A DNA stretch of 64,000 bases from assembly GCA_025403435.1 (NCBI GenBank), contig CM046353.1:29077715-29141714 (forward strand), in the 5' to 3' direction. Positions 8,150 through 44,220 of the stretch are shown here, piece by piece. This DNA is from Artocarpus heterophyllus (lineage: Eukaryota; Streptophyta; Magnoliopsida; Rosales; Moraceae). Position 1 is the first letter of the stretch, and each line of letters starts with the position of its first letter. A program made the position numbers and the translations under genes. The notes beneath the pieces were generated by a model. That model searched no databases. It saw only the letters and a program-made list of their open reading frames with translations, and was not told the origin of the DNA.

Positions 8150-8154
8150 AATAG

Positions 8155-11194: not shown

Positions 11195-11199
11195 GACCC

Positions 11200-13329
11200 T
11201 GCTCTCGCGTCTATTTACGCATTTTAAACTAACATTAAGTATAAGGTTGTCTCAAGTAATATTTTCTCGGTGAATCCGAGGTCGAACCCACAAGGAAGGA
11301 TTTATTCAGTTCTAGTACATGTATTATATTAACTTTTTCTTTTTATTTAAACTGAAAATTTTGAGGATTAATATTTATTATTCACAGAATGTATTTACAA
11401 TATTTACACATTTTTTTACAGCATTTTTCATCTTTAAATTTTGATAATTTGGAACTTTAATAACAAGAAATACAAATAATAATTTAAGCAGAGTAACAAC
11501 AATAATAACGGCAATTTAAGGAAGTAAAACAACAATAATAACAGGGCTGAGGTTCAAAGGTTCTGTTCTGACAATTATCTTCAATATATTTTAGTTTCTC
11601 TTTTTATTTATTAGTTGGTTTAAGTATACACTATGCCATCCTATGTCGACAATAAATCAAGATTTACTAAGTATTTACTATGTCATTCCATGTCTATAAT
11701 GCAGCAAAAACACAACTTAATAAATAAGCAGCATTTCAACATAACTTAACTAAAATAACAACCAAGATAGTTAGTTAAGCATTTACCGAGCCATTCTCTG
11801 ACTACGAGTAATCAAGGTCCTCCCAAGCATTATCCGTGCCAGTCTATGTTGTCGATAAATTAGAACCGTAATTTTGACAGAGTTTTAGCTAAGAAAATAT
11901 TGAAATTCTAGGTTTTCTAAGAGAATATTTTGGCATTACAACAGCTTAGAAAACTAAGAAAAACCAAAAATATTTAAGATAATTTTGCCAGAATTTCCCC
12001 CTCTTCCCTCAGCTAAAAAGAAATTTAGAAATACATAATTAATAAAGTACTACTGATATTATTGAGCATAATTTTTATAACATAAACTAGAAAATATTTT
12101 ACAAGAAACTAGACTGAAAAGTAAAATAAAAACTAGACTATAGTTATTACAATAGCATTTTCATGCTGCGAGGGGGCTCTCCCAAACTGAGGCAAATGTC
12201 CCAGTATTTATAGGAGATCGATTTTACAAACTGCCATTTGAAATTAATACGATTTCCTGTTGAAAGTTGACGATTTTGAATTATTTCCTTCTTCTTTCAC
12301 GCTGATCCGCGTTCGTGAGAATGCAAATTTGTCTTTGAGATTCTCTGCCTCATGGTACATGGCAACACTTAAACGGACTGATCGTGACCGTTAATCGTAT
12401 GATCCAACGACTCCAAACAAGCCTGAGAATGGGCCCAGCTGGGACCAATGGGACAGCAATTTTGGACTGTCAGATTGCTCTTGGTCATCGCATCCAATGG
12501 CTAGAAGAACAGCTGCACGTGGACTCACCCACACGTGAGCAGACACGGCTTGCGATTCCCCTGTGACGCCTGCAGCTTTGTCGACGCGTGTAACGCACGC
12601 GCCAATTATATCTCGACACGTGGACCGCACTTTGAGATTCTGCTGATGCACCGAATGACGCGTTGACACGCATCTTTTCCTCGGACGGCTGAGATGAATT
12701 CGGCATTGAATCCGATGGTCCTTGTTACGCCACGTGTCCCATTTAATTTAAATTCAGATTTTCTTTATCTTTTTGATGCATTTGATGTCCGATTTTATTC
12801 GTTTTGGTGTCGTTTTGCTCCGTTTTTCCTCTAGATTTCAAATCTAAAAATCACAAACACACTAATATTAATTATTTTACAAACATAATATTTATTAAAA
12901 ATATTTATTTTACAACAAAACACACAAAATTAGATAAAAACTCCTAAAATTTCCAGTCTTTTGCGGTTTAGCACAAATATAATTTTTATGACTTGGAAAT
13001 ATTTTTAAAAATTACTAAAAATATAACAAGACATATTTATAAACTTAAAACACACTATCAAACACACTAAAACTCAAAATAAAATAACCACATTACTTTT
13101 ACGGTTTTGACTATTTACAGACAATACACTTATTTAACACACCAAAATGACTTTAAAATTTACTAAAAACATAAAACACACTAAAAACGCATTTTTAAAC
13201 ATAATTTCACACCAAGACACAAAAATACTTATTAACACAAAATGCTATTAATTAGAGGATTTAATGAGAAATAAAAGCGTAAACAAATGATTTAAGCCTT
13301 AGAAAATGTACACTTTTACAGTCTCATCA
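11200..13329 (-). repeat. 3' LTR of the Athila-like element
   Basis: Nearly identical to 29306-31436. The sense strand starts TGATGAGACTG at 13329 and ends GCGAGAGCA at 11200. A TATA box (CTATAAATAC, sense) lies at 12205-12214. The upstream part (12516-12736) holds four CACGTG boxes. Open frames in this GC-richer block on both strands have no recognisable protein and are taken as shadows. Confidence 0.92.
12516..12736. promoter_or_regulatory. Cluster of four G-boxes (CACGTG) in the LTR
   Basis: CACGTG occurs at 12516-12521, 12532-12537, 12617-12622 and 12731-12736. Three of the four are kept in the other LTR (30622, 30723 and 30837). G-boxes are bound by bZIP and bHLH factors in light and abscisic-acid responses. 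Their place upstream of the LTR TATA box suggests promoter elements. Function is inferred. Confidence 0.55.
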
Positions 13330-13488
13330 TACCCCCCAACCAGCTTACTGCTAGTCTCTAGCAACTAAAGCGATAAAACTTAAAATAGACAAAAGATTTT
13401 TTTTTTTTTTGAAACTTGCGATTCCTCACTGATTTTCTTCAGGGTTTATCCCATATTCATGCCTCAAAATAAAGATGCAAACACTAAT
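13330..13488 (-). other. Polypurine tract and remaining 3' internal DNA of the Athila-like element
   Basis: The sense strand reads GCTGGTTGGGGGGTA directly before the LTR start TGATGA, a good polypurine tract. The rest (13342-13488) is non-coding and stops at a truncated piece of Copia leader. Confidence 0.7.
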
Positions 13489-13593
13489 TAAAATTAAATT
13501 CAAGCATAGGAGAGATAAAGATCACAAAATTTATGCATATAACATGATCATAAACTTGTAAATTTATGTAAAAACCGTGGCTCTGATACCAAT

Positions 13594-15604
13594 TGTTGGA
13601 AACGAGGTACGCAACGAATTTTTTAAAATTTTTCATTAGAGTAATTTCTAAAACACAAGTTTGACATGCTATATGCATAAATTAGCCAAATCTTACTAAC
13701 CTTTGTGTGAAGATCCTCCGCAGCCTGTGAAGAGAAGTAACGTTCCAGAAGAGCCTCAACCAACTGGTCTTCTTTGCTATTCTCTATCCACAACCGGAGT
13801 GAGTGTGGGCTTACACGTACAGCTCTTCCACCAGTGACTCTCCTTCCAACCAAGAGAGAGAACCCATAGCTAGTGTTTGTGATTTGTGAACAAAAGCTCT
13901 CAGGGAGTTTTTCAGATGCTCACTAGAAGAGTATCACTCTTAATCTCTCAATTGATCTTAGTAAATCATGAGACTCACTCCCTTTATATAGCCATTGGTC
14001 CTGGGGTCAGTCCTTATCAAATTAGGTCCCAAAAACTCGAAACAGAATCAAGTTTGGATCAATATCTTATAAGATCTGCATGAAAATACGTAATCCTTTT
14101 TCTCCCTGGTCGGAAGGCCAAACATCCTGATCGGCAGGCCGAACAGGCTCCATCTACAGGCCGAACTCCCAAGAAAAAATCTCCGCGAATCTTTTATTTT
14201 TCACCCGAGATTCTAAAGGATAAAGTCTTAGTTTTGATTCAAATAACCCAATAGAGAAGATATCTGATCAAAACAAGCTTTATTAAGATAATCTGTAAGA
14301 AAATAAATCAATTCACAATAATTCTACAAGTTTATCTTGATCTAATTGATCCAAAATTAAATCAACCGATAAACAGACAAGAATTATCCGATCCCAATAA
14401 TTCAACAAGTTTATCTTAAATTAATTTTATTACAAAATTAATTCAACCAATAAACAGACATGAATTATTTGATTCTTACAAATTTTAAACCAATCTGATA
14501 ATTCTGACATAAGTCACCAATTATTGGAAAAAGCACGCCGTGTCGTTACAGGATTTTATGAGCTAGCAAAGGGGACCAAAATGGACCTATAAAGTTCAAG
14601 CTCATGATAATTATGAAATCCAATATCCCAGATATACATTTCACAATTATCAACTCTAACGCTACTCTACTAAAAGCTTGGAGCTGCACTGTCGAACTTT
14701 ATAGAATTACGAAGCTCGTGTAGCTAAGTCTCCATGACTTATCAAAGTGTATCGTATCCCTATATGAAAATCCATAATCGGCTTAAGGACAAGTTCTGTC
14801 TTACCTTCCCGATTATTTTTATCTTACGTTCCATTGTCTCACCATTAGAAAACTTATCATCCAAAGATAGTATACCATTTGGTTACACCTATGTATCCAA
14901 ATGGTTGAGCGCTTCAGTTTTCCAATTACAGGACAACTCATATAAGAGGATATCATTACTCCTAAAGAGGAGCTATGGATTCCATATCTATGAATAACAA
15001 GTCTACACTATTAAGAGTCATGCCTCCAACGTACCGGCATGCATACCACTATTGAGATGTGGAAGTCACCCATTGGTACATCAAAAGACACAAGTCGAGA
15101 CAACAGGCCCACTATTCATCTCAGGATTAAGATACAATACAAATGATTGTCTAAAGTGAATCGATTTGCCAAGACAGAATTATTAATCCAAATCAATTCA
15201 CTTTATGTCTCGATCCAACATATCGTCACCTATGACAACGTGCCAATGTTTCTATTCACAGAGTCCAACTCCGATGGCCAAGACAAACCATCTCCCAAAG
15301 GGATATAGGCAACATAACAATCTTTACATAAATAAAGCGCCCAAGTTTATTCCCTCGATTGTGGATCATATGTTTTAGACCATTACCTTAAGAGTCGTGT
15401 CTTCCGCATAATCATCCCTTCATATGCCCAATTCTTAAGGTTTAGACCGACAGTCTCAGACTACTGTTTGCTTAACATACATTCAACAAATATGAACATA
15501 AAGAGGACAAGATTTGGTATATATAAATGAATAAATTCTTTATTGATAAAAATGTCTCCAAAAATATATTACATTTTTACTCCTTAGGGCATACATGTCT
15601 AACA
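13594..15604 (-). repeat. Copia family 1 3' LTR (minus copy)
   Basis: About 2.01 kb, starting TGTTGGAAACG and ending TGTCTAACA on the plus strand. It matches 21210-23239 and, in reverse, both LTRs of the copy at 36568-46207. Three degenerate TCGGCAGGCCGA repeats sit at about 14109-14166, against four in its partner LTR. The TATATAAAGGGAG promoter core lies near 13980 on the minus strand. Confidence 0.92.
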
Positions 15605-15618
15605 ATCTCCCACTTGCA

Positions 15619-18600
15619 CTAAGTGAGTAAATATAGCAAAATTTGCATCCCCATAGCTTCCACATGCATCTCGAAGACTCTCCCAGTAAGTGTCTTCGTA
15701 AATAGATCAGCTAAATTTTCCTCTAACGCGATCTTGCATACCGTGACTAGCCCGCCCTCAACAAAGTCCTTTATCACATGATACTTCCGATCAATATGCT
15801 TACTCTTCTTGTGAAACCTTGGTTCCTTAGCATTAGCTACCGCCGCACTGTTATCACAGTACAGTGATACCGCTTTATCCATACCAGGAACTACCTCAAG
15901 ATCCTCAAGGAACTTGTGGAGCCACATTGCTTCTTTCGAAGCATCACTAGCCACCACATACTCGGCCTCCATCGTTGAATCCAAAGTGCAATCTTGCTTC
16001 ACACTTCTCCAATTGATGGCACCGCCGCCTAGAGTAAACACAAACCCCGAAGTTGATTTCCTAGAATCCAGACAGGATTGAAAATCCGAATCAGTGTATC
16101 CTAGAGGAGTTAAATCCTCACCTGAATACACAAGCATATACCCTCGAGTCCTTCTCAGGTACTTGAAAATATGCTTTATCGCAACCCAATGGTTCGGTCC
16201 TGGATCCGCCTGAAATCAACTTACAATCCCGACCGCATAGCTAATATCCGGTTGTGTGCAAAGCATAGCATACATGAGACTACCCACTGCTGAAGCATAA
16301 GGCACCTTCTTCATGTGTTCTCTTTCTTCATAAGACTTTGGAGAGTCTTTCTTAGAAAGAGTAATTCCAAACCTAGATGGTTGCCCACCTTTCTTGCAAT
16401 CCTGCATTGCAAACCTTTTGAGAATTTTATCTATGTAGCCGGCCTGTGACAAAGCTATCATTTTGTTCTTCCTATCCCGAAAGATCTAGATACCGAGAAC
16501 AAAATTAGCCTCACCCAAGTCCTTCATGTCAAACTGCTTGGTCAACCATAATTTGACCGATGACAATGCCCCAACGTCATTGCCAATTAGCAGAATGTCA
16601 TCCACATAGAGTAGTAGAAAAACCACCTTCCTATCTTTAATGTGTTTGTAAACACATGGTTCATCCACATTTTGTGAGAACCCATAAGTCTTGATCACTT
16701 GATCAAATCTTATGTTCCAAGAACGGGAAGCCTGCTTAAGTCCATAAATTGACTTTAGCAGCTTACAAACCTTACTCTCTTGACCCGCGACCTTGAACCC
16801 GTCTGGTTGTTCCATATAAATGGACTCATCAAGATAGCCATTCAAAAAAGCAGTCTTGACATCCATCTACCAAATCTCGTAGTTGAGAGTGGCAGTTATG
16901 GACAAGAGAATCCGGATGGACTTAAGCATGGCTACAGGCGAAAAGGTTTCCTCATAATCGATTCCTTCCTTTTGTGTATAACCCTTAGCTACCAGTCTAG
17001 CCTTAAAGGTTTCGACCTTTCCATCCACTGCTCTTTTCCTCTTGTAGATCCACTTACACCCTATGGGTTTTACCCCTTCGGGAAGATCCACAAGCTCCCA
17101 GACCTGATTAGTCTCCATAGACTTCATCTCTATGTTCATGGCCTCTGTCCAGAGTTTTGAATCAACATCCTCCATAGCTTCTGCGTAAGTATAAGGATCC
17201 CTATCATGTTCATCCGGTTCAGCCAAGAAGACCTCCCCATTGAACATATACCTCTCAGGTTGACGCCCGATCCTCCCACTATGCCGAAGCCCATGAGATT
17301 GTTGTTCAAGTTTGTTTGGTTTTTCTATACCGATCGGAATGGTTTTGTTCGGAACCTCCGGAGTGAACGGATCACCCCTTAACTCCTCAAGCACCACTTT
17401 GCTTCGAGGTTTAAAGTCGTCCATGTAACTCTCCTCAAGAAAAGTTGCATTAGTTGAAACCACGACTTTTTTTTCCTTTGGGTTATAAAAATAACCCCCT
17501 TTAGTCCCTTTTCGATATCCTACAAACACGCAAACTTCCGAACGTGCTTCTAACTTATTCGAATCCTTAAACAGGACATGAGCCAGACATCCCAATATGC
17601 TAATATGGTTTAAGGATGTCTTCCTTTTTGTCCACAACTCATGAGGAGTTTTAGGGACCGATTTTGAAGGCACATTGTTCAAAAGATAATATACAGTTTG
17701 TAGTGCATATCCCCAAAAGGATAAAGGTAATGATGAATAACTCATCATGGACCTAATCATGTCCAACAAAGTCCTATTCCTTCTCTCTGCTACGCCAGTC
17801 TGCTGCGGAGTGCCCGGCGCAGTCAAATGGGATAAAATCCCATTCTCTAACAAGTGTCCCATGAACTCATCAGAAAGGTATTCCCCACCTCGATCAGATC
17901 GAGGTGCCTTTATGGGTCTACCCAATTGCTTTTCCACTTCAGCCTGAAACTCCCTGAACTTATCATAAGTTTCACTTTTGTGGTGCATCAGGTACACATA
18001 CCCATATCTTGAGTGATCGTCAATAAAAGTGACGAAGTACTCATACCCTCCTCGTGCCCGGATGTTCATTGGTTCGCAAACATCACTATGCACAAGTTCT
18101 AGAACCCCTTCGGCCCTATTGCCCTTAGACCCGTATGGTCTTTTGGTCATTTTACCCTCCAAACAAGATTCACATGGAGGTATAGATTCCACCTTTAAGT
18201 GACTTAAAGGTCCATCCCTTACCAATCTTTGAATCCTATTCAGGTTAATATGGCCAAGGTGCAAATGCCAAAGATAAGTCTTATTAGAGTGAGAAGTTTT
18301 AAGTCTTTTAGTGTCATTATCACTTATCTCAACATTAAGCAATAAGTCCATCTTAGGTTTGATAAAATATAGATTATTTTGCATCCATCCAGAATAGATA
18401 AAAAAATTGTTTTTACGAATCACCACTTTTTCATTAAAAGATACCATGTAGGAGTCTTTAAATAAAGAAGATATAGAAATTAAATTCCTTTTAAATTTAG
18501 GAACATAAAAACAATCTCGCAAAATTAAATTCCTATAATTATCAAAGTAAAGATGGACATCTCCCACTGCTTCCGCTGAGACCAAGGATCCATCGCCCAT

Positions 18601-19572
18601 TTGAAGCGTTAAGTCTTCACGTAGCAGACTTCTCGTTTCTTTGAATCCCTGCAGAGAAACACAAACATGATTAGTTGCACTGGAATCTATAACCTAGATG
18701 TCACTGGATTCCTCAACCAAACAAGTTTCTAAATATAGAAGATCACACCTACCTCCCTTGGAAAGGAAGTCCTTGCAGTGCTTTTTTATATGCCCGACCT
18801 TACCATAGAAGAAGCACTTAAGCTTCTTTGGGTTCTTCTTCTTCTTCTTCTTGTTCTTGGTAGCAGCAGGAATAGAAGACTTCCTGTTCTTGGCCCGTTG
18901 CTTCTTTCCATTCCCTGAGTTAGGATTGGAACCAGAAGCAGCTACCATGTTGGTCTCACCACCAGCAGGAGACTCCCTGATCAGCAGTTCGAACTCCTGT
19001 AACTGTTTCATCAGTTCTGTTAAGGTCATATCCCATCTATTACTTAAATTAAAAGTAGCCCTAAACAGAATAAATTCCTTAGATAGAGTTTGAAAGACCA
19101 TAGTCATCTAAGTTTCAGCATCGATGTCGGCTCCATTGGTTTGAGCCTCAGCGAGGTAACCCATGACCAACATCATGTGCTCCTTCACAGATGTCCCCGG
19201 TCTCTGTCTACAGTTTAAGAGTTTCTGAAGCATCCTTTGCCGCTTTGTTATGGCCTGGCCTCCGAACATATCCTCAAGATTATCCAAGATCTGCTTCGTA
19301 GTCTCATAATCCTGGTGTTGAGCCTGCAGCACGTTGTTCATGCTAGCCATAACATAGCAGCGAGCCTGATCATTAGCATCTTTCCAGCGATCGTAAGCTT
19401 GGAATTGTTCATTACTTGAGTCTCCCGTAGGCTCGAGAGGACAAGGGGTTGTCAGTACATATTTCAGTTTCTCAAAGGAAAGGATGATATCCAGGTTCTG
19501 TTTCCAATCGTTATAATTCTCACCGGTTAATTGGTTTTTGTCAAGTATTGATGATAAAGCGTTTTTAGACAT
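15619..19572 (-). pseudogene. Copia family 1 gag-pol, one frame broken by five stops (minus copy)
   Basis: A single frame runs from ATG at 19572 to the stop at 15619 with no frameshift seen. It is interrupted only by stops at 19108, 18694, 16867, 16486 and 16216. Domains in order: gag (19572-18800); zinc knuckle CFFYGKVGHIKKHC near 18800, with its second cysteine changed to tyrosine; protease D-S-S-A-T-N just after the 18694 stop, where D-S-G is usual; and integrase with HLHLGHI, then HSDVC, SDRGGEY and AERRN, all three catalytic residues kept (18270-17600). RT has YVDDILL at 16591-16611, and RNase H YTDSDFQSCLDSRKSTSG is at 16137-15619. All stops fit C-to-T or G-to-A changes. The product would be the usual capsid, protease, integrase and RT polyprotein, but this copy cannot make it whole. 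Confidence 0.9.
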
Positions 19573-21209
19573 TTTCAATCTACAATAAAGAATGATATAC
19601 CAAACATAAGCAAACATATATAATAATTTAGTAAGATAACACAATCATGTAAAATCATACAAATGGGTTTATGTGTCAAAACCTTGAAAATATCACAACC
19701 TTACAACGATAATTCCCAACTCAGAATTCAACAAGCTCCTAGGGGAGTCATGTCAAATTCAATCAGGAACACGGATCCCTTCCTGATTAATATATGCCAT
19801 CCAAGACCCACATGATCCAGCATATACTAATAATCGTTTCTTTGGCCATTAATTTTATTAACAGAGCTCCTAGGGGAGGTTAATAATAAAATTAACGTGA
19901 GTGTATAACCATCGTTTCAATATGTTATCCATGATTTATAATCACCACATAGGGGTGTGCAACCATAAATCATACTAAAATCCCTTATCCTTTTAGAGAT
20001 CCAATCTGGTACATGACAGAAATCCCTTCTTAGGGGTCGGGACCACCATGTTTTTCCTATGGACCAACGATGGAGGCCTTAGGTTCTCTCTTCGAAAACC
20101 TTCTCCCACTCAATCTTTTGAAATCAAGGTTTTATTTTAAAATTATGCATGAACAATTTTAATATGAGCGGCACTCCCTATTCTATATGACATGTTATCA
20201 ATATACATGGTAAATCATATTATAATGCAGACAAGCAAAGCTACAAGCAAAATAATAATAACCGTAATATTATGGTTTCACCCTAGAGAATAGAAAACTA
20301 AGATTACAAGAGAATAATCGAGACATTTATCGATTCTTCATCCTTGAATCCTCAAGTTGTATCCTTCTTCATGCAATATCTATCTTCAAGTCTTCAATCC
20401 CGTATGAATCAAAAACTTCATATTTCTGGTCATATTGAAATTTAATGTTTCTCAGAATCGTCTCAAAAATAAAATTAAAAATGCACTAAAAAAATTGCAC
20501 CTTTTCTGGACACTTGGCAGCTCTCGGTCGGCAGGCCAATTTGGGTAATCGGCCTGCCGATCCATGAAGGTTCGGCCTGCCGAACTGAATGTTCGGCCTG
20601 CCGGGAGAGCACCCCAATTTCTGCCCCACTGTCGGCCTGCCAGACCACACGTTCGGCCTGTCGATCTATGACCTTCGACCTGCCAAACTGTGATGTCCGG
20701 CATGCCGACCGAGTAGAAAAAACTTATTCCAAAAAATACAACTTTAATGCAATTTCTCAATTTTATTTTCAACAATTTAAAAACATAAAATTAGAGACTC
20801 AGGAAATACCTAGGAGCTCCATCATCATTCTTCTAGATCCGTCTTCTCCGAATAATTATTTAATTACAAAATTTTACAAATTTAAAATTAAATAACAATT
20901 CCTAGACGAAGATGACAGTCTGCCATCTAATTACATGAAAAACCTAGATACATATTCTAACCTCTAAGGAACCATAACAAGTATTAATTAATTAATTAAT
21001 AATTAAAACAAAGATTTAATCAACCATAATTAATTAATAAATATTTACCATATAATCCATGACAACATATATAATTTATAGAAACCTAGAGTGCCATCTC
21101 TCTATAAAATTAAATTCAACCATAGGAGAGATAAACATCACAAAATTTATGCATATAACATGATCACAAACTTGTAAATTTATGTAAAAACTATGGCTCT
21201 GATACCAAT
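19573..21209 (-). other. Copia 5' leader with primer site (minus copy)
   Basis: About 1.6 kb of untranslated leader between the 5' LTR and gag. The plus strand GCTCTGATACCA at 21196-21207 is the complement of the standard initiator tRNA-Met primer site TGGTATCAGAGC, separated from the LTR by two bases. The leader also carries the near-palindromic repeat array at 20526-20709. Short frames inside it are not coding. Confidence 0.85.
20526..20709. repeat. Array of nine near-palindromic TCGGCCTGCCGA repeats in the Copia leader
   Basis: Nine copies of a 12-14-mer of the form (T/A)TCGGCCTGCCGA(A/T) in about 185 bp, spaced 20-45 bp apart. The array is colinear with 39094-39298 of the plus copy. The CGGC and GCCG arms can pair within or between copies. 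The same word recurs in the LTRs upstream of the TATA box. Function is unknown. Confidence 0.85.
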
Positions 21210-23239
21210 TGTTGGAAACGTGGTGCGCAGCGAAATTTTTAAATTTTTTTATCAGAGTAATTTCTAAAACACAAGTTTGACATGCTATATGTATAAATTA
21301 GACAGATCTTACTAACCTTTGTGTGAAGATCCTCCGCAGCCTGTGAAGAGAAGTAACGTTCCAGAAGAGCCTCAACCAACTGGTCTTCTTTGCTATTCTC
21401 TACCCACAACCGGAGTGAGTGTGGGCTCACACGTACAGCTCTTCCACCGGTGACTCTCCTTCCAACCAAGAGAGAGAACCCAAAGCTAGTGTTCGTGATT
21501 TGTGAACAAAAGCTCTCAGAGAGTTTTTCAGATGCTCACTAGAAGAGTATCACTCTTAATCTCTCAATTGATCTGAGTAAATCATGAGACTCACTCCCTT
21601 TATATAGCCATTGGTCCTAGGGTCAGTCCTTATCAGATTAGGTCTCAAAAACTCGAAACAGAATCAAGTTTGGATCAATATCTGATAAGATCCGCGTGAA
21701 AACACGTAATCCTTTTTCTGGCTGGTCGGCAGGCTAAACATCTTGATTGGTAGGCCGAACAGGCTCCATCGACAGCCGAACTTGTCATTCGGCAGGCCGA
21801 ATTCCCGAGAAAAAATCTCTGCGAATCTTTTATTTTTCACCCGAGATTCTAAAGGATAAAGTCTCAGTTTTGATTCAAATAACCCAATAGAGAAGATATC
21901 TGATCAAAACAAGCTTTATCAAGATAATCTCTAAGAAAATAAATCAATTCACAATAATTCTACAAGTTTATCTTGATCTAATTTATCCAAAATTAAATCA
22001 ACCGAAAAACAGACAAGAATTATCCGATCCCAATAATTCAACAAGTTTATCTTAAATTAATTTTATTACAGAATTAATTCAACCAATAAACAGACATGAA
22101 TTATTTGATTCTTACAAATTTTAAACCAATCTGATAATTCCGACATAAGTCACCAATTATTGGAAAAAGCACGCCGTGTCGTTACAGGATTTTGTGAGCT
22201 AGCAAAGGGGACCAAAATGGACCTATAAAGTTTAAACTCATGATAATTATGAAACCCAATATCCCAGATATACATTTCACAATTATCAACTCCAACGCTA
22301 CTCCACTCAAAGCTTGGAGCTGCACTCTCGAACTTTATAGAATTATGAAGCTCGTGTAGCTATGTCTCCATGACATATCAAAGTGTATCATATCCCTATA
22401 TGAAAATCCATAATCGGCTTAAGGACAAGTTCTGTCTTACCTTCCCGATTATTTTTATCTTACGTTCCATTGTCTCACCATTAGAAAACTTACCATCCAA
22501 AGATAGTATACCATTTGGTTACACCTATGTATCCAAATGGTTGAGCGCTCTAGTTTTCCAATTACAGGACAACGCATATAAGAGGATATCTTCCTCCTAA
22601 AGAGGAGCTATGGATTCCATATCTATGAATAACAAGTCTATGCTATCAAGAGTCATGCCTCCAACGTATCAGCATGCATACCACTATTGAGATGTGGAAG
22701 TCACCCATTGGTACATCAAAAGACACAAGTCGAGACAACGGGCCCACTATTCATCTCAGGATTAAGATACAATACAAATGATTGTCTAAAGTGAATCGAT
22801 TTGCCAAGACAGAATTATTAATCCAAATCAATTCACTTTATGTCCCGATCCAACACATCATCACCTATGACAACGTGCCAATGTTTCTATTCACGGAGTC
22901 CAACTCCGATGGCCAAGACAAACCATCTCCCAAAGGGATATAGACAACATAACAATCTTTACATGAATAAAGCGCCTAACTTTATTCCCTCGATTGCGGA
23001 TCATATGTTTTAGACCATCACCTTTAGAATCGTGTCGTCCGTATAATCATCCCATCATATGCCTAATTCTTAAGGTTTAGACCAACAGTCTCAGACTACT
23101 ATTTGCTTAACATACATTCAACAAATATGAACGTAAAGAGGACAAGATTTGGTATATATAAATGAATAAATTCTTTATTGATAAAAATGTCTCCAAAAAT
23201 ATATTACATTTTTACTCCTTAGGGCATACATGTCTAACA
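21210..23239 (-). repeat. Copia family 1 5' LTR (minus copy)
   Basis: About 2.03 kb, partner of 13594-15604. It contains four TCGGCAGGCCGA-type repeats at about 21724-21802 and a TATATAAAGG core near 21595 on the minus strand. It ends TGTCTAACA at 23239, followed directly by the 3' flank of the LOG-like gene. Confidence 0.92.
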
Positions 23240-23330
23240 ACATATACTTACCAAAGCGGTTATTCAAAGACAAACACATAAACAAAGACAAAAACAATAA
23301 TGCTGTAACTAAAACTAAAAGAGGTAGAGT

Positions 23331-23969
23331 TTAGGGAGAAAGATCCCAATCTCGTTTGCGTTTTTTGCAAAACTTTGATGTTGCAATGTCCGTTTCAAGA
23401 TCAATGACGTGCATTTTTTTGAGCAATTCCTCTACAGTAGTGGCAGAGATAAAAATCTTTCTTCCTGACTCATCAAGAAACTTTTGTTCCACAGTATGAT
23501 CTAAAAAACTAGGCAAATAGTCAAAGTAACCATTTATATTTAACAAACCAACAGGTTTAGAGTGTAGTCCTAACAATTTCCAACTAGCAATGGCAAAAAG
23601 TTCCTCTAGAGTTCCTAAACCTCCAGGTAAGGCAATGAAAGCATCAAAAGCAAACTCCATGTCTCTTATTCGCTCAGGCATACCTGTAACTATTTTTTCA
23701 ACACCAATGGTAGGACCACATAAACGACTTTGAGCAAGGACACCTGGAATAATACCTAAAGCTTTAGTACCTCCAGAACGTCTTCCAGCAGAGACAGTAC
23801 CCATTAAACCTAGACTATCTCCTCCATAGACAAGGTTTATCTTTTTCGTAGACAAGACATAGCCTAGATGAAATGCAGTTTCTATGTAATCAATGCCTTT
23901 TCCTGATTTAGAACCACAAAACACACAGATATTGTTGAACTTTAAAGATGACTGGGACGAGGAATCCAT
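23331..23969 (-). CDS. LOG-like cytokinin riboside 5'-monophosphate phosphoribohydrolase, retrotransposon-borne
   Basis: An intact, intronless frame of 212 residues, close to the usual LOG length. LOG enzymes remove ribose phosphate from cytokinin nucleotides and so release active cytokinin bases in the cytosol. Visible motifs are VFCGS (16-20), VYGGDSLGLMG (47-57), MPER with the conserved arginine at 100, and PGGLGTLEE (115-123) with the catalytic glutamate at 123, followed by KPVGLLN. Deviations: GGDS where GGGS is common, MPERIRDM where plant LOGs have a R-K pair, and a basic tail KKRKRDW (202-208) that could be a nuclear signal. Typical plant LOG genes have several introns, so this looks like a processed copy. 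It lies in sense inside the Athila-like element, where pol is missing, about 630 bp after the small cysteine-rich frame. An A-rich tract lies just before the ATG (minus strand). The open frame suggests either recent capture or selection; activity is unproven. Confidence 0.88.
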   Translation of the reverse strand: MDSSSQSSLKFNNICVFCGSKSGKGIDYIETAFHLGYVLSTKKINLVYGGDSLGLMGTVSAGRRSGGTKALGIIPGVLAQSRLCGPTIGVEKIVTGMPERIRDMEFAFDAFIALPGGLGTLEELFAIASWKLLGLHSKPVGLLNINGYFDYLPSFLDHTVEQKFLDESGRKIFISATTVEELLKKMHVIDLETDIATSKFCKKRKRDWDLSP

Positions 23970-24597
23970 GATAATTGACTAAGACTAAGACTCTTTTTTT
24001 TTCTTTTTTTTTTTTTTGACTGACTCTATTTTACAAATTCGCTCTGAGAAAAACTTAAAAACTAAAAGGATTTTATAAACACCTAAAGCGAACGTTGGGT
24101 AAAATTAAATTAAGACAGTTGTGATGACAGACAAGGACTAATAAATGTGACACCCTGCAGACAACTTGTACCTGACAACACTATTAACTTTTTGACAAAC
24201 TAAACTTTACTGTACAACTTTTGACAAATGGTACTAAATTTTAAAATTCGAAGCAAATCTTATCTTACACGACACACAAGATACCTACCGAAGAAAATTA
24301 TGCATCTGACAAAAGAAGAAAAGTCAAGATATTATTATTATAAGATAAACGATACTATCACAATTATTAAACAACAACTGTACAAATCACAAAAATAAAA
24401 ATCTTTTTGATGATGAAATTTTATTTGAGAATGAGTTGAAGAAAACTTTTGTTCATCAAAACGGGTTTCCAAAAATTCCGTTACTCAGCCGTTTTGATGA
24501 TTTTTCATTAAAACCATGATCATACCTCGAATAAATTTTCAATCAAATTTTTTTTTTTTAGAACAAACACACAAAGAAACAAAGAAGAATACTTTAC
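23970..24597 (-). other. Spacer between the cysteine-rich frame and the LOG-like gene
   Basis: AT-rich and non-coding. It holds a long A-rich tract on the sense strand (plus-strand T tracts at 23992-24017), a second T tract at 24549-24559, and a hairpin at 24453-24500. There is no convincing TATA box for a separate LOG promoter, though ATAATAATA runs near 24340 could serve. Confidence 0.5.
24453..24500. repeat. Inverted repeat, 12-bp perfect arms, 24-base loop
   Basis: TCATCAAAACGG at 24453-24464 and its exact complement CCGTTTTGATGA at 24489-24500. It sits upstream of the LOG-like gene in the cargo region. It could form an RNA hairpin or be a small palindromic site. Function is unknown. Confidence 0.8.
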
Positions 24598-25148
24598 AAA
24601 CCTTGTTCTGAAGTAGAAGGATCTTGAGTCTGTTTTCCATCTAACATTCTTGCAAACTGAACAGTTGGGTCTTTTAGCGTCAGATTCTCAAGACGTTCTT
24701 TTTCTTCATGAAATTAAGGCCAGAGTTGTTTCATAGCCCCCCAAACGTATCCACTTGGATGGGACTCAAGAGAAACTTGGAGGTCTTCTAAGTTTTCATT
24801 CCTAAGACCATTTTTACAGAACTGAATTTTATCTTCCCTATTTCTAGATACGAAACCAAGTGAGGGACATTTTTCAGAACAAGTTTGACGAGAACATTTA
24901 TGACATTTTGACTCCATGCGACGAGCTCTTCTTTTTCTAGCACACAGACTTGTACCCATACCAGGAAAACCTACATTATTTACATCACTTGAATGAGCAA
25001 GACCTTCTATGCACATCTTAATATCAGTAGGAAGCTTAAAACGTGAAAGTACCCAAAGACGAGTGACTCTAGTTTTGTACTTCTTTCTGATCTCTCTTTA
25101 AGAAAGTGAAGGGAAATATTTCTTTAAGTTCTCATATTTCGGATCCAT
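24598..25148 (-). pseudogene. Small basic cysteine-rich protein frame, carlavirus NABP-like, with two in-frame stops
   Basis: From ATG at 25148 one frame can be followed to a final stop at 24598-24600. It is about 180 codons long and broken by stops at 25098-25100 and 24714-24716. The middle open part includes, in order, a leucine- and arginine-rich helix-like segment, an LPTDI segment, a GTS motif, a basic run RKRRARR and a cysteine cluster C-x2-C-x4-C-x3-C (KCHKC, then TCSEKC). This layout resembles the carlavirus nucleic-acid-binding protein family, whose members bind nucleic acid and suppress RNA silencing. The resemblance is judged from layout alone. A different zinc-ribbon protein of host or element origin is the alternative. 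A host-like promoter precedes it. No RT or other retroviral domain is present. It is unlikely to yield a full protein in this copy. Confidence 0.5.
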
Positions 25149-25383
25149 GATTGAGAAATTGAGATTCTTGAGAGTGAATTAAAAGCTTTAAGAGAAAGTT
25201 CGAGAGAGAATTGTGAAGATTTTTGTGAAAGCAGAAGAAGAGGAGATTGAAGATTTTCTGGAAAAAAAAGTGTTTGAAAGATTGAAGATGTTTGAAAGAG
25301 TTTTGAAGAATTTCTTGGAATTTTAGCAAGAAGACAGAGAGAATTCGAGAGAGAGAACAAGAAATTTAGAGAGAGAAAGAACA

Positions 25384-25510
25384 AAGATTTCTGAGCTTGG
25401 ATGCACAGTAATAGATTTTATAGACAAGGGGTAGACTTCTATTCAGACACGGGGAAGACTATTCAGACGCATGCGAGAGTAATGGGCTGAATTAAAATGG
25501 GCCAAAGAAA
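25384..25510 (-). promoter_or_regulatory. Internal host-like pol II promoter before the cargo genes
   Basis: On the minus strand TATAAAA lies at 25422-25416. About 60-85 bp further upstream are two site II boxes, seen on the plus strand as TGGGCT (25483-25488) and TGGGCC (25498-25503). Downstream, from about 25395, a CT-rich leader runs to the ATG at 25148. Site II boxes plus TATA and a CT-rich leader are typical of plant gene promoters. This suggests the cargo came with its own promoter, or acquired one, and need not rely on the LTR. Confidence 0.55.
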
Positions 25511-25835
25511 GGTAACCTAACAGATTACTCAGAAATGAAAATATTTTTGTGTTTTTTTTTTTTTGAGTTTTTCATTTTTTTATTTTTTTAATTTTTATTT
25601 ATTTTTATTTTTTTTACAAAGATCTAAAATTCAGAAAAATTCATTGAAAATCATTTCATTAAAATGCATTTCTAGAGGCCGTTGATACAAAAATACCAAC
25701 TAATCGTGCTGATTATAACCTCCATAATTTCTGCCATTTTAATGAATTTTTTAAATTATTTTTCTGATTTTTAGGAAAGACAAAGAAAATAAAGATACAA
25801 TAAACAAACACAAAAACATAAATACGATACAAATA
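25511..25835. other. AT-rich non-coding DNA between gag-protease and the cargo promoter
   Basis: Contains a T-rich low-complexity block (about 25549-25617). No reverse transcriptase motif is found here or in any frame between 25835 and 23240. This is where pol would begin in a complete Athila/Tat element. Confidence 0.6.
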
Positions 25836-28473
25836 TTAATCTATAACTATGATTTCAGTTTCAGGATTGGAGTCAGAATCATCAATGTTGATGACTGTTG
25901 GAAGAGTTGCTCTAAACCTTCCCAAAAGATAGCACTCCCAAAAAGTTAAGTTGCCAGCAGCTGCAAAGAATCTTTGCTGAAATTCTTCTTCATCCATGAG
26001 ATCATACATGAGGTCATCCATAGTGTCACCCATCACCACATCCTCAGGTTCTTCTTCAAAAACTTCATTTTCACATTCAGCTTCAAAAGTTGAATTGTTT
26101 GCTTCAAGAGATTGGTCAGAAACATTCACAGGATGGTTATCAACTTTGGGTGGAACATTCGAATCAAAAGAATTAGCCAAATCAGGCAAAGGATCAACAA
26201 ATGTTCCTGAAGTACTGCTCACAACAAAATTCACTTCACACTTTTCAGAGGGTGATTGTGCCATGTTAAAAACGTTGAATTCTGAAGTCATATTCCCAAA
26301 AGACAATTTTAGTATTCCATATCTACAATTAATCAAAGCATTAGAAGTTGCAAGAAATGGACGACCCAAAATGACAGGAATTTGAACATTTGAATTTGTG
26401 ACAGGTTGTGTATCCAAAACAATGAAATCCACTGAGTAGTAAAATTTATCAATTTGGACTAACACATCCTCGACAACACCTTTTGGAATTTTTACAGATC
26501 GATCAGCTAGTTGAAGTGTGACAGAAGTTGGCTTTAGTTCACCTAGACCTAATTGCTGATAAACAGAATAAGGTAAGAGGTTGACACTAGCACCAAGGTC
26601 TAACAAAGCATGTTCAATTTGAGTATTTCCGATGATGCAAGAAATTGTGGGACAACCAGGATCCTTGTATTTCAATGATGAATCATGTTGAATGATGGAA
26701 CTAACATTCTCAGCTAAAAATGCAGTTTTAGTCACATTATGCTTTCTTTTAATTGTACAACAATCTTTCAAAAATTTAGCATAAGATGGGACTTGTTTGA
26801 TTGCATCTAAAAGTGGAATGTTAATTTGGACTTGTTTGAACAGTTCAAAAATTTCAGCGTTTTTGTCAAACTTCTCTTTTGAAAGCAAAGCTTGAGGAAA
26901 TGGAATCTTTGGAACAAATTTCTCTCTTGAAACACTCTTTCTTTTTTTTCAGAATTTTCCTCATTACTATTAATTTTATCACCACTTTTCAAAGCTGAAT
27001 TAACTTTCTGATCTTTTAAAAGATTAGTTTTATCAACAGTTTTTCCACTTCGAACAGTTGTAACAAAATTAACAGTTTCTTGTTGTGCCTATGAATTGGA
27101 AGAGGCAATTTCATTAGCAGATGGATAATGTACATGTTAAGCAGGAAATTTGCCTTTTTCTTGAATGTGAAGGGAAGAAGTGAGTTTGGAAATGGATTCT
27201 TTAATTTCATGAATGTCTTGAGAAGTGCGAGTGTTATGAACTTCCTGTTTTTGAATTAATGATTTTTGAGCTTGAATGAAAGTTTGAAAAGTGTCTTCAA
27301 GAGTTTTGACTCGAGATTGGAGATTTTCAGAAAAATTTTGTGGAGGCCTTTGAAAATTTTGAGAATTTGATGGAAATGGTGGACGGCCTTGAGAGTTTTG
27401 TGGTGGAAATGGTGGTGGTGGTTGATATTGCTGTTGTGGTTGATCATTTCTCCAACTGAAATTGGGATGGTTTTTCTATTGTGAATTGTATGTGTCAGAA
27501 TGTGGGGATGGAAATGGCTTTCTAGGTGGTTCCAATTGATTTGTGTAATTCACTGTTCATGGGACTCTTCCTTAAAAATTGGGCATTCATAGGTTGAGTG
27601 TCCTAGAGTTTGGAAAACACTACACAAAATTTCAATTTTGGGTTCTTGGACATTCCTTCGTTCCATGGCTTCAATCCTTTTAGTCAAACATGCAATTCTA
27701 ACACTTAAATCATTTTCTTGACTAAGTTGATGGACACCTCTTTGAGCATTAGCAAGATTAGATCTAATTGAGCCTTCAGAATTACTATGTTGCCAATATT
27801 GAGAGTTATCAGCCAAATTATCAAGGAAATCTAATGCTTCATCAGGTTCTTTATCAAGGAATTCTCCATTACACATTGTTTCAACAAATTGACAGGTTTC
27901 AGGAGTTAAGCCTTCATAAAAAAAAATTAATGTGACGCCATTTTTCAAAACCATGATGTGGGCAAGAATTTAACAAATCTTTAAATCGTTCCCAGCATTG
28001 GAAATAAACTTCTTTTGCATTTTGGGAAAAATTTTGAATTTGTTTTTCAAAGCATTGGTCTTATGTGTTGGAAAGAATTTTTTCAGAAACTCAGTTTGCA
28101 TTTCTTGCCATGTACCTATTGACCTAGGTTTTAAAGAAGTAAGCCAAGTTTTAGCTTTGTCTTTTAAAGAAAAAGAAAAAAGCTTAAGCTTAACAATTTC
28201 ATTTGAAACTTCCTGGTTAGTGAAGGTAGCACAAACATCTTCAAACTCTCTGAGGTGCAGATATGGATTTTCAGATTCTAAGCCATGAAAATTGGGAAGC
28301 AAGTTGATCATTCCAGGTTTAAACCTAAAGTGATGAACATTGAGAAAAAAAACCAAACATGATGGAGTGGATTCACGGGGTGGTTGCAAATAATCTCTCA
28401 TTGAGCGAACAACAAGATTGATGATTTGTTGATTAACAATATTTTCATTATGAACACTTTCATCATCAGCCAT
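25836..28473 (-). pseudogene. Athila-type gag-protease, frameshifted gag
   Basis: Gag starts at ATG 28473 (MADDESVHNENIV). It has the retrotransposon gag core FKPGMINLLPNFHGLESENP and KAKTWLTSL (about 28315-28100). A single-base loss near 28050 and a compensating change near 27925 put about 40 codons out of frame. Gag resumes with FFYEGLTPETC, and the CCHC-like segment follows near 27575. A proline-, glutamine- and lysine-rich linker (27550-26890) has further shifts. Protease is intact in a 350-codon frame (26888-25836), with LLDLGASVNLLPYSVYQ near 26610-26560 as the active-site region (D-L-G-A where D-T-G or D-S-G is usual) and LADRS after it. The frame ends in an acidic tail and never enters RT. 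Gag binds and packages RNA, and protease matures it. Confidence 0.85.
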
Positions 28474-29281: not shown

Positions 29282-29299
29282 TCCCTGGCAACGGCACCA
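29282..29299 (-). other. Primer binding site, tRNA-Asp type
   Basis: The sense strand TGGTGCCGTTGCCAGGGA lies six bases after the 5' LTR. It matches the complement of the plant tRNA-Asp 3' end with about two mismatches. A tRNA-Asp primer is common in Athila-like elements. Confidence 0.75.
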
Positions 29300-29305
29300 A
29301 AAACT

Positions 29306-31436
29306 TGGTCTCGCGTTTATTTACGCATTTTAAACTAACCTCAAGTATAAGGTTGTCTCAAGTAATATTTTCTTGGTGAATCCGAGGTCGAACCCACAAA
29401 GAAGGATTTATTCAGTTCCAGTACATGTATTATATTAACTTTTTCTTTTTATTTAAACTGAAAAAATTTGAGGATTAATATTTATTATTCACAGAATGTA
29501 TTTACAATATTTACACTTTTTTTACAGCATTTTTCATTTTTAAATTTTGATAATTTGGAACTTTAATAACAAGAAATACAAATAATAATTTAAGCAGAGT
29601 AACAACAATAATAACGACAATTTAAGGAAGTAAAACAACAATAATAATAGGGCTGAGGTTCAAAGGTTCTGTTCTGACAATTATCTTCAATATATTTTAG
29701 TTTCTCTTTTTATTTATTAGTTGGTTTAAGTATACACTATGCCATCCTATGTCGACAATAAATCAAGATTTACCAAGTATTTACTGTGCCATTCCATGTC
29801 TATAATGCAACAAAAACACAACTTAATAAATAAGCAGCATTTCAACATAACTTAACTAAAATAACAACCAAGATAGTTAGTTAAGCATTTACCGAGCCAT
29901 TCTCTGTCTACGAGTAATCAAGGTCCTCCCAAGCATTATCCGTGCCAGTCTATGTCGTCGATAAATCAGAACCGTAATTTTGGCAGAGTTCTAGCTAAGA
30001 AAATATTGAAATTCTAGGTTTTCTAAGAGAATATTTTGGCATTACAACAGCTTAGAAAACTAAGAAAAACCAAAAATATTTAAGATAATTTTGCCAAAAT
30101 TTCCCCCTCTCCCCTCAACTAAAAAGAAATTTAGAAAGACATAATTAATAAAGTACTACTGATATTATTGAGCATAATTTTTACAACATAAACTAGAAAA
30201 TATTTTACAAGAAACTAGATTGAAAAGTAAAATAAAAAGTAGACTATAGTTATTACAACAACATTTTCATGCTGCGAGGGGGCTCTCCCAAACTGAGGCA
30301 AATGTCTCAGGATTTATAGGAGATCGATTTTACCAACTGCCATTTGAAATTAATGCGATTTCCTGTTGAGAGTTGACGATTTTGAATTATTTCCTTCTTC
30401 TTTCACGCTGATCCGCGTTCGTGAGAATGCGAATTTGTCTTTGAGATTTTCTGCCTCGCGGTACACGGCAACACTTAAACGAACTGATCGTGACCGTTAA
30501 TCGCATGATCCAACAGCTCCAAACACGCTTGAGAATGGGCCCAGCTGGGACCAGTGGGACAGCAATTTTGGACCGTCAGATTGCTCTTGGTCATCGCATC
30601 CAATGGCTGGAAGAACAGCTACACGTGGACTCACCCACACGCTTGCAGACACGGCCTGCGATTCCCCTATGACGACTGCAGCTTTGTCGACGCATGTAAC
30701 GCACGCGCCAATTATATCTCGACACGTGGACCACACTTTGAGATTCCATTGACGCACCGAATGACGCGTTGACACGCATCTTTTCCTCGGACGGCTGAGA
30801 TGAATTCGGCAGTGAATCCGATGGTCCTTGTTACGCCACGTGTCCCATTTAATTTAAATTCAGATTTTCTTTATCTTTTTTAAGCATTTGATGTTCGATT
30901 TTATCCGTTTTGGTGTCATTTTGCTCCGTTTTTCCTCTAGATTTCAAATCTAAAAATCACAAACACACTAATATTAATTATTTTACAAACATAATTTTTA
31001 TAAAAAATATTTATTTTACAATAAAACACACAAAATTAGATAAAAACTCCTAAAATTTTCAGTCTCTTGCGGTTTAGCACATATATAATTTTTATGACTT
31101 GGAAATATTTTTAAAAATTACTAAAAATATAACAAGACATATTTATAAACTTAAAACACACTATCAAACACACTAAAACTCAAAATAAAATAACTGCATT
31201 ACTTTTACGGTTTTAACTATTTACAGACTAGACACTTATTTAACACACCAAAATGACTCTAAAATTTACTAAAAACATAAAAACACACTAAAAATGCATT
31301 TTTAAACATAATTTCACACCAAGACACAAAAATACTTATTAACACAAAATGCTATTAATGAGAGGATTTAATGAGAAATAAAAGCGTAAATAAATGATTT
31401 AAGCCTTAGAAAATGTACACTTTTACAGTCTCATCA
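29306..31436 (-). repeat. 5' LTR of the Athila-like element
   Basis: Partner of 11200-13329. The sense-strand TATA box CCTATAAATC is at 30320-30311, which puts the transcript start near 30285 and leaves about 1 kb of R-U5. Upstream, CACGTG boxes are at 30622-30627, 30723-30728 and 30837-30842. The fourth box of the other LTR is lost by substitution. The outer end TGATGAGACTG is followed by the GACCC duplication. Confidence 0.92.
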
Positions 31437-31441
31437 GACCC

Positions 31442-32700
31442 TGAAAAAATGGCCGGAGCTTCTGGGCAGAAGTGATGAAAGCAAATGCAAGCTTTTCCAA
31501 TGGAAGGTACCTCTCCTTGGTGCCTTGAGATGCATGGCTGGTATAGTAGACTGGCTTCTAGATACCGTCTTTTTCTCAGACAAGGATCGAGCTTACAGCT
31601 TTCTTGGACACGGCTAGGCAAGCATATAATACCTCTCTCGGTAAAGGTTTAGACAAGAGTGGGGGTGTGGCTAGATTCCTCTTCAGATTTTGGAATGCTT
31701 TTTCACACTCCCTGCTCCATTCAAACCTCCCCTTGAGTGCCAAAAAAATAGGTGGCACTTGTCAGTAGATCGGGATACAAATCTAGACAGGGCCGCTACC
31801 ATGTTGGCCAGCTTGTGTACCTTTTTGACTCTACGGGGTAAGTGCATGTCAATCACTGCTTGGCCTTTAGCTGGGTTGACCTCGATCCTTCTTTGGTTTA
31901 CCAAGAATGAGGAAATTAATAGATTTAACCCTAAACGTGCACTTGGCCAGGTTGAGTTTCATCCTATACTCCCAGAGAATGTCAAAACATGCTCAGAGGT
32001 CGGCAATATAATTCACCGCCTAGATTGATTTGACAAGCATGTCATCTACATAAACTTCCATGGTCTTGCCTAATCAGTCAAGTAAACATTTTGTTTACCA
32101 AAGCGCTGGTAGGTGGCTCTGGCATTCTTCAGGCCAAAGGGCATAACCACGTAGTAGAAGAGCCTTTGGTTTATGGTGAAGGCAGTCTTAATCTAACCTT
32201 CCTTAGGCCATCCTGATCTATTTGTAGCTGGAATAAGCGTCCATAAAGCTCAACAACTCATGTCCGGCTATCATGTCCTATGAGCTGATCTATCCGAGAA
32301 AGTGGGAAGCAGTCCTTTGGGCAGGCTTTGTTGAGGTTGGTATAGTCGATGTAGACTCGTCATTTTCTATTAGATTTTCTAAGTTGGACTACATTTGCCA
32401 GCCATTCTAGGTAGGTGACCTCTTAGACAAACCCAGCCTTCAAGAGCTTTTGGACCTCCTCGTTGATGGTTACATACTTCTTTGGGTTGAAGGCTCTCTT
32501 TTTTCTGAATGACTGGTTTATGCTTGGGACGGACATTGAGGCGAAGCAAGATGATGTAGGGATTAATGCCAGGCGTGCCTTTATGGGACCACACAAATAC
32601 ATCCCGATATTCTATAAAGAACTTTTCTAGCTAGGCCCGGATCTCAGGTTTCAACTGAGAATCGAGTTGGACCATTTGGTCAGGATGTTTGGGGTCCAAA
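31442..32700 (-). pseudogene. Tat-A reverse transcriptase, heavily broken
   Basis: Minus-strand pieces in several frames are recognisable as Gypsy RT. From right to left they are VWSHKGTPGINPYI (about 32590), a palm segment near 32360 (VQLRKSNRKWRVYIDYTNLNKACPKD region), VNPAKGQAVI and HKLANMVAALSRF (31880-31790), FEWSRECEKAFQNLK (31730-31690), and a segment ending KLRPFF-like at the insertion edge. Many stops and shifts are present. The frame at 31442 continues into 11194 across the 20-kb insertion. Confidence 0.8.
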
Positions 32701-38579: not shown

Positions 38580-38581
38580 AT

Positions 38582-38593
38582 TGGTATCAGAGA
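38582..38593 (+). other. Primer binding site, initiator tRNA-Met type
   Basis: TGGTATCAGAGA lies two bases after the 5' LTR. The standard Copia site is TGGTATCAGAGC, so only the last base differs. Confidence 0.88.
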
Positions 38594-43200: not shown

Positions 43201-44206
43201 GGTTTTTCTACTGCTCTATGTGGATGACATTCTGCTAATTGGCAATGACGTTGGGGCATTGTCATCGGTCAAATTATGGTTGACCAAGCAGTTTGACATG
43301 AAGGACTTAGGAGAGGCTAATTTTGTTCTCGGTATCCAGATCTTTTGGGATAGGAAGAACAAAATGATAGCTTTGTCACAGGCCGGCTACATAGATAAAA
43401 TTCTCAGAAGGTTTGCAATGCAGGATTCCAAGAAAGGTGGGCAACCATCTAGGTCTGGAATTACTCTTTCTAAGAAAGACTCTCCAAAGTCTTATGAAGA
43501 AAGAGAATACATGAAGAAGGTGCCTTATGCTTCAGCAGTAGGTAGTCTCATATATGCCATGCTTTGTACACGACCTGATATTAGCTATGCGGCCAGGATT
43601 GTAAGTTGATTTCAGGCAGATCCAGGACCGAACCATTGGGTTGCGGTAAAGCATATTTTTAAGTACCTGAGAAGGACTCGAGGGTATATGCTTGTGTATT
43701 CGGGTGAGGATTTAACACTTCTAGGATACACTGATTCTGATTTTCAATCCTGTCTGGATTCTAGGAAATCGACTTCGGGGTTTGTGTTTACTCTGGGCGA
43801 CAGTGCCATCAGTTGGAGAAGTGCGAAGCAAGATTGCACTTCAGATTCAATGATGGAGGCCGAGTATGTGGCAGCTAGCGATGCTTCGAAAGAAGCAGTG
43901 TGGCTCTGCAAGTTCCTTGGAGATTTTGAGGTAGTTCCTGGTATGGATAAAGCGGTATCACTGTACTGTGATAACAGTGCGGCGGTAGCTAATGCTAAGG
44001 AACCAAGGTTTCACAAGAAGAGTAAGCATATTGATCGGAAGTATCATGTGATAAAGGACTTCGTTGAGGACGGGCATGTCACGGTGTGCAAGATCGAGTC
44101 AGAGGACAATTTAGCTGATCCATTTACGAAGACACTTACTGGGAGAGTCTTCGAGAGGCATGTGGAAGCTATGGGGATGCAAAATTTGCTGTATTTACAC
44201 ACTTAG
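40265..44206 (+). pseudogene. Copia family 1 gag-pol, broken by stops and frameshifts (plus copy)
   Basis: Gag starts at ATG 40265 and has in-frame stops at 40331, 40451 and 40595, then a shift before 40662. Gag resumes to the zinc knuckle YFFCGKVGHIKKHC (about 41020), with the first cysteine changed to tyrosine, and a normal protease site DSGATN near 41150. A one-base loss near 41252 shifts the frame. Integrase (41442-42305) has HSDVC, SDRGGEY and SERRN, with a stop at 41767 and a shift near 42235. RT follows, with stops at 42674 and 42953 and YVDDILL at 43214-43234. RNase H (43688-44206) has YTDSDFQSCLDSRKSTSG. The stop after GRIVS-like residues at 43607 is shared with the minus copy. Confidence 0.9.
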
Positions 44207-44220
44207 TGCAAGTGGGAGAT

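Follow-up and report, generated by a model that had tools for sequence, protein, structure and literature searches.

Why a plant retrotransposon should carry a LOG-like frame where its own polymerase genes are expected is the question raised by a 64,000-nucleotide stretch of Artocarpus heterophyllus DNA (assembly GCA_025403435.1, contig CM046353.1, positions 29,077,715 to 29,141,714 of the forward strand), referred to here as the window. An initial annotation had proposed an Athila-like long terminal repeat (LTR) retrotransposon in which pol is replaced by host-acting cargo. The element, which occupies 11195-31441 of the window on the minus strand, was found to belong to a high-copy family in which gag and protease are followed by a cysteine-rich protein (CRP) frame and a LOG-like frame, and no pol was detected in the copies examined.

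In the sense direction the element reads 5' LTR (29306..31436), primer site (TGGTGCCGTTGCCAGGGA, 29282..29299), gag, protease, approximately 700 nt including a TATA box, the cysteine-rich frame, LOG and 3' LTR (11200..13329), all on the minus strand. The LTRs are 96.0% identical across 2137 columns (Kimura two-parameter distance, K80, of 0.0397), giving an age of around 1.5-2.8 million years at two assumed substitution rates; the polypurine tract (GGTTGGGGGGTA in sense) lies at 13330..13341 on the minus strand, and the target-site duplication GACCC is exact at 11195..11199 (3' side) and 31437..31441 (5' side). These hallmarks were all confirmed as initially described; the extent given then, 23240..28473, is only the core of the element, 23240 being a mere junction with a nested element. 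Paired LTRs, a 5-bp duplication, primer site and polypurine tract were found in the window element and three more copies, with the tract the same in two of these three (one variant in the third) and the primer site reading TGGCGCCGTTGCCGGGGA in two (one base different in the third). We take the window primer site to be of the tRNA-Asp type. An excerpt of PMC6317226 includes tRNA-Asp among the primers of non-chromoviruses.

Between the LTRs, the first part of gag (27970..28473; PF03732, E 5.6e-13) has a broken continuation to ~26807, and a protease-containing frame (25836..26948; PF13650, E 2e-6) follows, so that gag-protease was correctly recognised in the initial annotation but is not intact here, being spread over several frames. 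The promoter proposed before the small frame corresponds to a TATAAAA (25416..25422), a putative internal promoter 275 nt upstream of the CRP ATG. The small frame itself (24594..25148) encodes a carlavirus-type CRP and lies in sense as claimed, but is broken in this copy by two in-frame stops, with intact relatives existing elsewhere. The LOG-like frame (23331..23969), described as intact, is indeed open over 212 codons (PF03641, E 1.2e-31) and keeps PGGLGTLEE, with an Asp in its YGGGS loop.

The reported lack of reverse transcriptase (RT), RNase H and integrase was also upheld, as the RT, RNase H and integrase frames of an Athila-type element gave no match between the ends of the window element (E 1e-3) and only weak matches elsewhere in the window (7356-8153 and 31438-32524). 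These queries were taken from a pol-bearing element that lies antisense within family copy L011, with partly open pol frames, and that we presume to be of Athila type. Its polyprotein resembles that of the window in protease (61% over 231 aa) and gag (55% over 126 aa), so the family would sit next to this presumed Athila-type element. No pol was found in sense between the 5' LTR and LOG in the window element or any of 20 fetched copies, and none was matched in four 3' pieces (L029-L032); the stretch leading up to the 3' LTR was covered in full for three copies only. An integrase match in L017 (38%) is located 5' of the LTR. We considered whether pol might be concealed by the nested element or lie 3' of LOG, and rejected this because LOG and the 3' LTR are only 1.7 kb apart in three two-LTR copies and the 3' pieces were without pol.

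The suggestion that this layout characterises a family, and is not a one-off capture, was borne out by a LOG search of the 985 Mb assembly, in which 150 of 5999 candidates were scored. The 150 listed places had 84-100% identity, 74 being without and 76 with a stop. Protease, CRP and LOG were present in one sense order in all 20 fetched copies (L009-L028, ranks 2-21 by similarity to the window LOG; protease partial in L011 and L025), with gag in 18 (not L011, L025) and a 5' LTR in 18 (not L011, L022). The protease-CRP distance in fetched copies was ~700 nt, TATAAAA preceded the CRP ATG in 20/20 other copies, and CRP-LOG spacing was near that of the window in 18 copies, L020 and L022 having a longer one. 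A LOG 30-mer (up to 3 mismatches) had 247 genome matches and its reversed control 0, more diverged copies escaping this count, and a second sequence group was present among the matches. Starting from CRP, 101 of 150 listed places were followed on the same strand by a listed LOG at a distance of 0.8-4.4 kb (1.0-1.5 kb in 97 of them), compared with 0 for the controls with LOG upstream or on the opposite strand; 18 of the other 49 were fetched (L033-L050, high-ranking CRP places without a listed LOG and hence biased to decayed LOG), and 16 of these have LOG downstream, L037 and L046 being without it. Matching 5-bp target duplications flanked all three assessable copies out of four whose 3' ends were fetched, and these three have LTR K80 values of 0.0459, 0.0160 and 0.0185 and 1.70-1.74 kb between LOG and 3' LTR; in L029, the 3' piece for L009, the LTR matched in parts only and was left undated. 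The possibility that LOG and the small frame are a separate insertion with its own ends was rejected, given the same order in 20/20 copies. At C4 25.72 Mb, C6 5.15 Mb and C15 29.55 Mb, adjacent LOG copies were also observed on the same strand at intervals of 9.7-9.9 kb; this spacing approximates one LTR plus the internal region and suggests tandem arrays with common LTRs.

The family LOG has the look of an enzyme, judged by its motifs. PF03641 with PGGxGTxxE and YGGGSxGLMG was found in the family, 18 of 21 copies having YGGGSLGLMG, and the window LOG keeps 46 of 49 positions conserved across host and non-host LOGs. The Asp at the third Gly of its YGGGS loop is the sole case among 21 copies in this genome; the same Asp occurs in a Reevesia relative (P0086), and so need not abolish function of the window LOG. 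In a tree of 37 rows (from the best 120 of 1027 matches, after dropping those under 205 aa, P0114 and non-host rows above 80% identity), the window LOG, on a long branch, groups with LOGs of Populus, Diplodiscus, Reevesia, Melia, Citrus and Orobanche in one clade (support 99/96), apart from 12 host-type LOGs; the unnamed matches are putative residents of elements. A C-terminal LxLxL, mostly following a basic cluster, was seen in 81 of 91 non-host LOG matches of at least 205 aa (many near-identical) and in 0 of 10 host-type ones (among P0001-P0120; host-type set by eye from names and tails, all 10 outside the non-host clade). We take LxLxL to be an EAR-like repression motif, and it is possibly a nuclear repressor tail of mobile LOGs. 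The family in this genome has instead a DWDLS tail followed by one final residue (L in the 8 copies read to the end).

The small frame is, by its sequence, a relative of the carlavirus CRP, which the initial annotation had missed. The open stretch in the window (24714-25097) is bounded at both ends by stops that fall inside the frame of relatives (by eye), and this piece matched Viral_NABP at E 1.1e-4 with 22.7 bits, just under the curated cut-off of 23, and Carla_C4 weakly. A protein search with it found two relatives (92% and 79%), and a profile of these three sequences extended the set to 113 proteins (E up to 10), which include sequences named as Orobanche gracilis, Citrus x changshan-huyou, Xanthoceras and Acer. 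In an alignment that joined the window piece to 30 of the 113 (31 sequences in all), 25 matched Carla_C4 (best 1.5e-8) and 23 Viral_NABP (best 6.4e-9) at E up to 0.01; relatives passed Pfam cut-offs, P0134 for example with 27.9 bits vs 20.9. Thirteen columns were invariant, NREDKI and two Cys (the second and third) of a four-Cys finger among them. The predicted structure was of poor quality (pLDDT 66, pTM 0.33), and its top two matches in BFVD, an RNA silencing suppressor of Helleborus mosaic virus (E 0.7) and a nucleic acid binding protein of Indian citrus ringspot virus (E 2.6), give only a hint of likeness to such viral proteins. Scans of viral contigs with CRP and LOG gave no confirmed relatives. 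CRP and LOG are combined in six of the 113 CRP-profile proteins: Orobanche P0141, P0169, P0201 and P0212 and Citrus P0162 have both Pfam domains, whereas in Citrus P0229 a LOG domain is accompanied by a CRP match; the LOG-like part of a seventh candidate, P0166, was recognised by eye. As these combinations are automatic gene models they show neighbourhood and not fusion. According to an excerpt of PMC12172455, flexivirus CRPs act in pathogenicity and as suppressors of silencing, and the chrysanthemum virus B protein is in addition a transcription factor causing hyperplasia (citing Lukhovitskaya 2013).

Nonsynonymous (N) and synonymous (S) changes were compared in LOG at thresholds picked after the data had been seen. 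Among 21 copies, variants present in at least three copies comprised 6 N and 15 S, or 0.18 of the neutral ratio (off-frames 1.31 and 2.35), compared with 59 N and 21 S among singletons (Fisher p 2.3e-4). Among 77 copies, variants in at least eight comprised 15 N and 17 S, or 0.39 of neutral (off-frames 1.03, 1.65), compared with singletons of 191 N and 56 S (Fisher p 5e-4), and variants in at least ten gave 0.33 (off-frames 1.26, 1.96); places L051-L090 had all been chosen from LOG places without a stop. The 16 LOG copies found via CRP gave 0.26 for variants in at least four (off-frames 0.91, 2.69), and pairwise LOG pN/pS over 21 copies was 0.53 (off-frames 0.96, 1.41). We read these values as a LOG constrained while the family spreads and decaying after insertion, with a signal that depends on the threshold. 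The openness of the window LOG was rejected as proof of selection, since its neutral chance of staying intact since insertion is 0.40.

We consider it moderately probable that these copies represent a high-copy, non-autonomous Athila-like family with its own Gag and protease, a borrowed RT and integrase, and an internally promoted CRP-LOG module that aids its spread. Gag and protease would be made from the LTR promoter, RT and integrase would be supplied in trans by a pol-bearing relative, and the internal promoter would drive the accessory pair, a zinc-finger CRP of plant-virus type and then a LOG-like enzyme. The CRP might go to the nucleus, weaken silencing or both, and LOG might raise active cytokinin locally, so that together they would hold the cell dividing and permissive, allowing the element to be transcribed and passed on. 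What the data themselves establish is the anatomy, copy number, common order and linkage, the lack of detected pol among copies examined, the target duplications, and a low but threshold-dependent N/S at common LOG variants; promoter use, protein activities, a supply of pol in trans and any benefit to the element are inferred. More speculatively, and to our minds doubtfully, a long-lived pol-less lineage of eudicot transposons may have built a two-protein module from a viral-type transcription factor or silencing suppressor and a cytokinin-activating enzyme, spreading by inducing host cell proliferation as a nuclear counterpart to tumour-inducing bacteria and some viruses.

Several results weigh against this account. 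A search among the copies brought up no autonomous element whose LTRs match those of the family, and in L013 an RNase H match (37%) lies ~1 kb 3' of LOG (9388-9930 in sense orientation) in place of the expected spacer to the 3' LTR, although it may be another insertion. The selection that the initial annotation had set as a test is seen at common variants but is lost at loose thresholds in the 77 copies (0.70 for variants in at least three, off-frames 0.68 and 0.83; 0.76 for at least four, off-frames 0.55 and 0.85), where recurrent transitions may mimic shared variants, and is unclear in pairwise pN/pS over those copies (0.76; off-frames 0.82, 1.11); the 16 CRP-reached copies similarly gave 0.50 for variants in at least three (off-frames 0.61, 1.86). 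All 16 of these LOG copies have a stop or frameshift relative to the window frame, a set biased to decay because it is absent from the best-LOG list. Values for CRP (0.46, 21 copies) and protease (0.50, 19 copies) point in the same direction but are not significant (p 0.39 and 0.14), and the CRP fold search had no significant match (best E 0.7).

Three other explanations were weighed against these data. The LOG-fold protein may no longer matter as a cytokinin enzyme and may instead serve the element as an accessory that binds nucleotides or acts as a nuclear repressor, as would fit the LxLxL ends (81/91 non-host against 0/10 host-type matches) and the degraded loop motifs of the Citrus and Orobanche CRP-LOG models; we think this unlikely, as PGGxGTLEE is kept in 19/19 non-host LOGs outside those models, the window LOG retains its 46 of 49 conserved positions, and the DWDLS tail of the family in this genome is not LxLxL. 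That CRP and LOG are passive cargo without a role, carried along by a successful master lineage, appears to us quite unlikely. It would account for frames that decay after insertion, with half of listed LOG matches (76/150) bearing a stop, for a window LOG that could have stayed open by neutral chance (0.40), and for the fading of the N/S signal at loose thresholds, but not readily for a low N/S at common variants that is confined to the coding frame, for the recurrence of the CRP-LOG pair in Citrus and Orobanche, or for a CRP that keeps two invariant Cys and NREDKI over 31 sequences.

The copies might also come from a conventional Athila family, autonomous and equipped with an accessory region on its 3' side, of which the 20 best matches are one deletion derivative that chanced to amplify. 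Pol-bearing LOG elements do exist, because those with LOG domains in Citrus and Populus were located via RT (excerpt of PMC9289625), and the 20 copies are the best matches to the window, with the second sequence group among the 30-mer matches lying outside them. Set against this, none of the 20 has pol between protease and CRP, which with the protease-CRP distance of ~700 nt indicates one stable layout, and a deletion derivative would still be the amplified form among the copies seen; we find this explanation, too, unlikely.

The nested LTR element, which lies outside the family at 13489..23239 on the minus strand (LTRs ~13489-15605 and 21105-23239), is positioned between LOG and the 3' LTR and is presumably of Copia type, by recognition of the frames at 15619-19644. 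Excluding it, only ~250 nt separate LOG from the 3' LTR, compared with 1699-1741 nt in three other copies, leaving ~1.45 kb absent; no matching target duplication was seen by eye in the flanks of the nested element, so that its insertion may have been accompanied by deletion of host-element sequence. An inverted second copy of it (93.6%) was observed in the window (36568-46207 vs 13594-23239), and its LTR at further window places. The weak matches at 31438-32524, which flank the family element, are to Ty3/Gypsy RT and RNase H, indicating that the element was probably inserted into another retroelement. Antisense frames were also noted in four of four copies inspected (L016, L019, L021, L023): similar ones that span 92-118 codons in the interval from LOG to the 3' LTR (~8440-9930 in sense orientation), a possible antisense accessory open reading frame (ORF) missing from the window, and similar ones of 80-101 codons in the CRP-LOG spacer.

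Steinbauerova and colleagues reportedly described, in Genetica in 2011, Athila-like elements with a LOGL4-like extra ORF. The presence of LOG in Athila-like elements has thus been on record since 2011, and the idea of a vehicle spreading such a gene is partly supported here by the shared order, the family and the selection on LOG at common variants, but not as a novelty. LTR elements with gag and without pol, termed TR-GAG, are presumably mobilised in trans. The family likewise keeps gag and lacks pol, as do other gag-only plant LTR elements, and differs in also keeping protease and having two accessory genes. As excerpted, PMC9289625 reports YgdH/LOG domains in elements of Citrus sinensis, C. 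clementina and Populus, which, with those of Steinbauerova 2011, resemble the present family as plant Ty3/Gypsy elements with a LOG-like frame; the excerpted elements were found via RT, and so have pol, and are described there without a CRP partner, whereas pol is absent from the copies seen here and CRP precedes LOG. In orchids, Ty3/Gypsy elements that carry an AlkB m6A demethylase are reported in the same excerpt (PMC9289625). These are similarly plant LTR elements with an extra gene, but with a different one, and with one accessory protein and not a pair. AlkB domains are also found in flexiviruses. In insects, transposons encode virus-like RNA helicases that suppress silencing weakly (PMC6338049, excerpt), a parallel in that a virus-type suppressor resides in a transposon, although the protein and host group differ and LOG is not involved. 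Viral CRPs of carlaviruses and mandariviruses (Carla_C4, Viral_NABP) share with the element CRP a basic stretch followed by a four-Cys finger; the element CRP differs in being encoded in plant genomes beside LOG and in having a C-terminal half that is conserved outside the matched region. Among the titles listed in the literature searched, none reports a CRP in a retrotransposon, subscription papers being mostly outside coverage. Apparently new are the high-copy layout without pol, the partnership with a CRP of viral type, the CRP-LOG module as a shared unit, and the signal of selection.

The function of extra ORFs in plant LTR elements is described as an open question in an excerpt of PMC7264820, and such ORFs are also treated in the excerpted PMC6317226. 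The two found here have recognisable relatives with known activities and adjoin in Citrus and Orobanche too, and the frame-specific selection signal in LOG at common variants, together with the small size of both proteins, makes the extra-ORF question directly testable. It also raises the question of whether a transposon manipulates hormone level and silencing to replicate. A high-copy family that spends its coding space on probable host-directed genes and not on its own polymerase suggests a genomic parasite that may alter host cells to aid its own spread.

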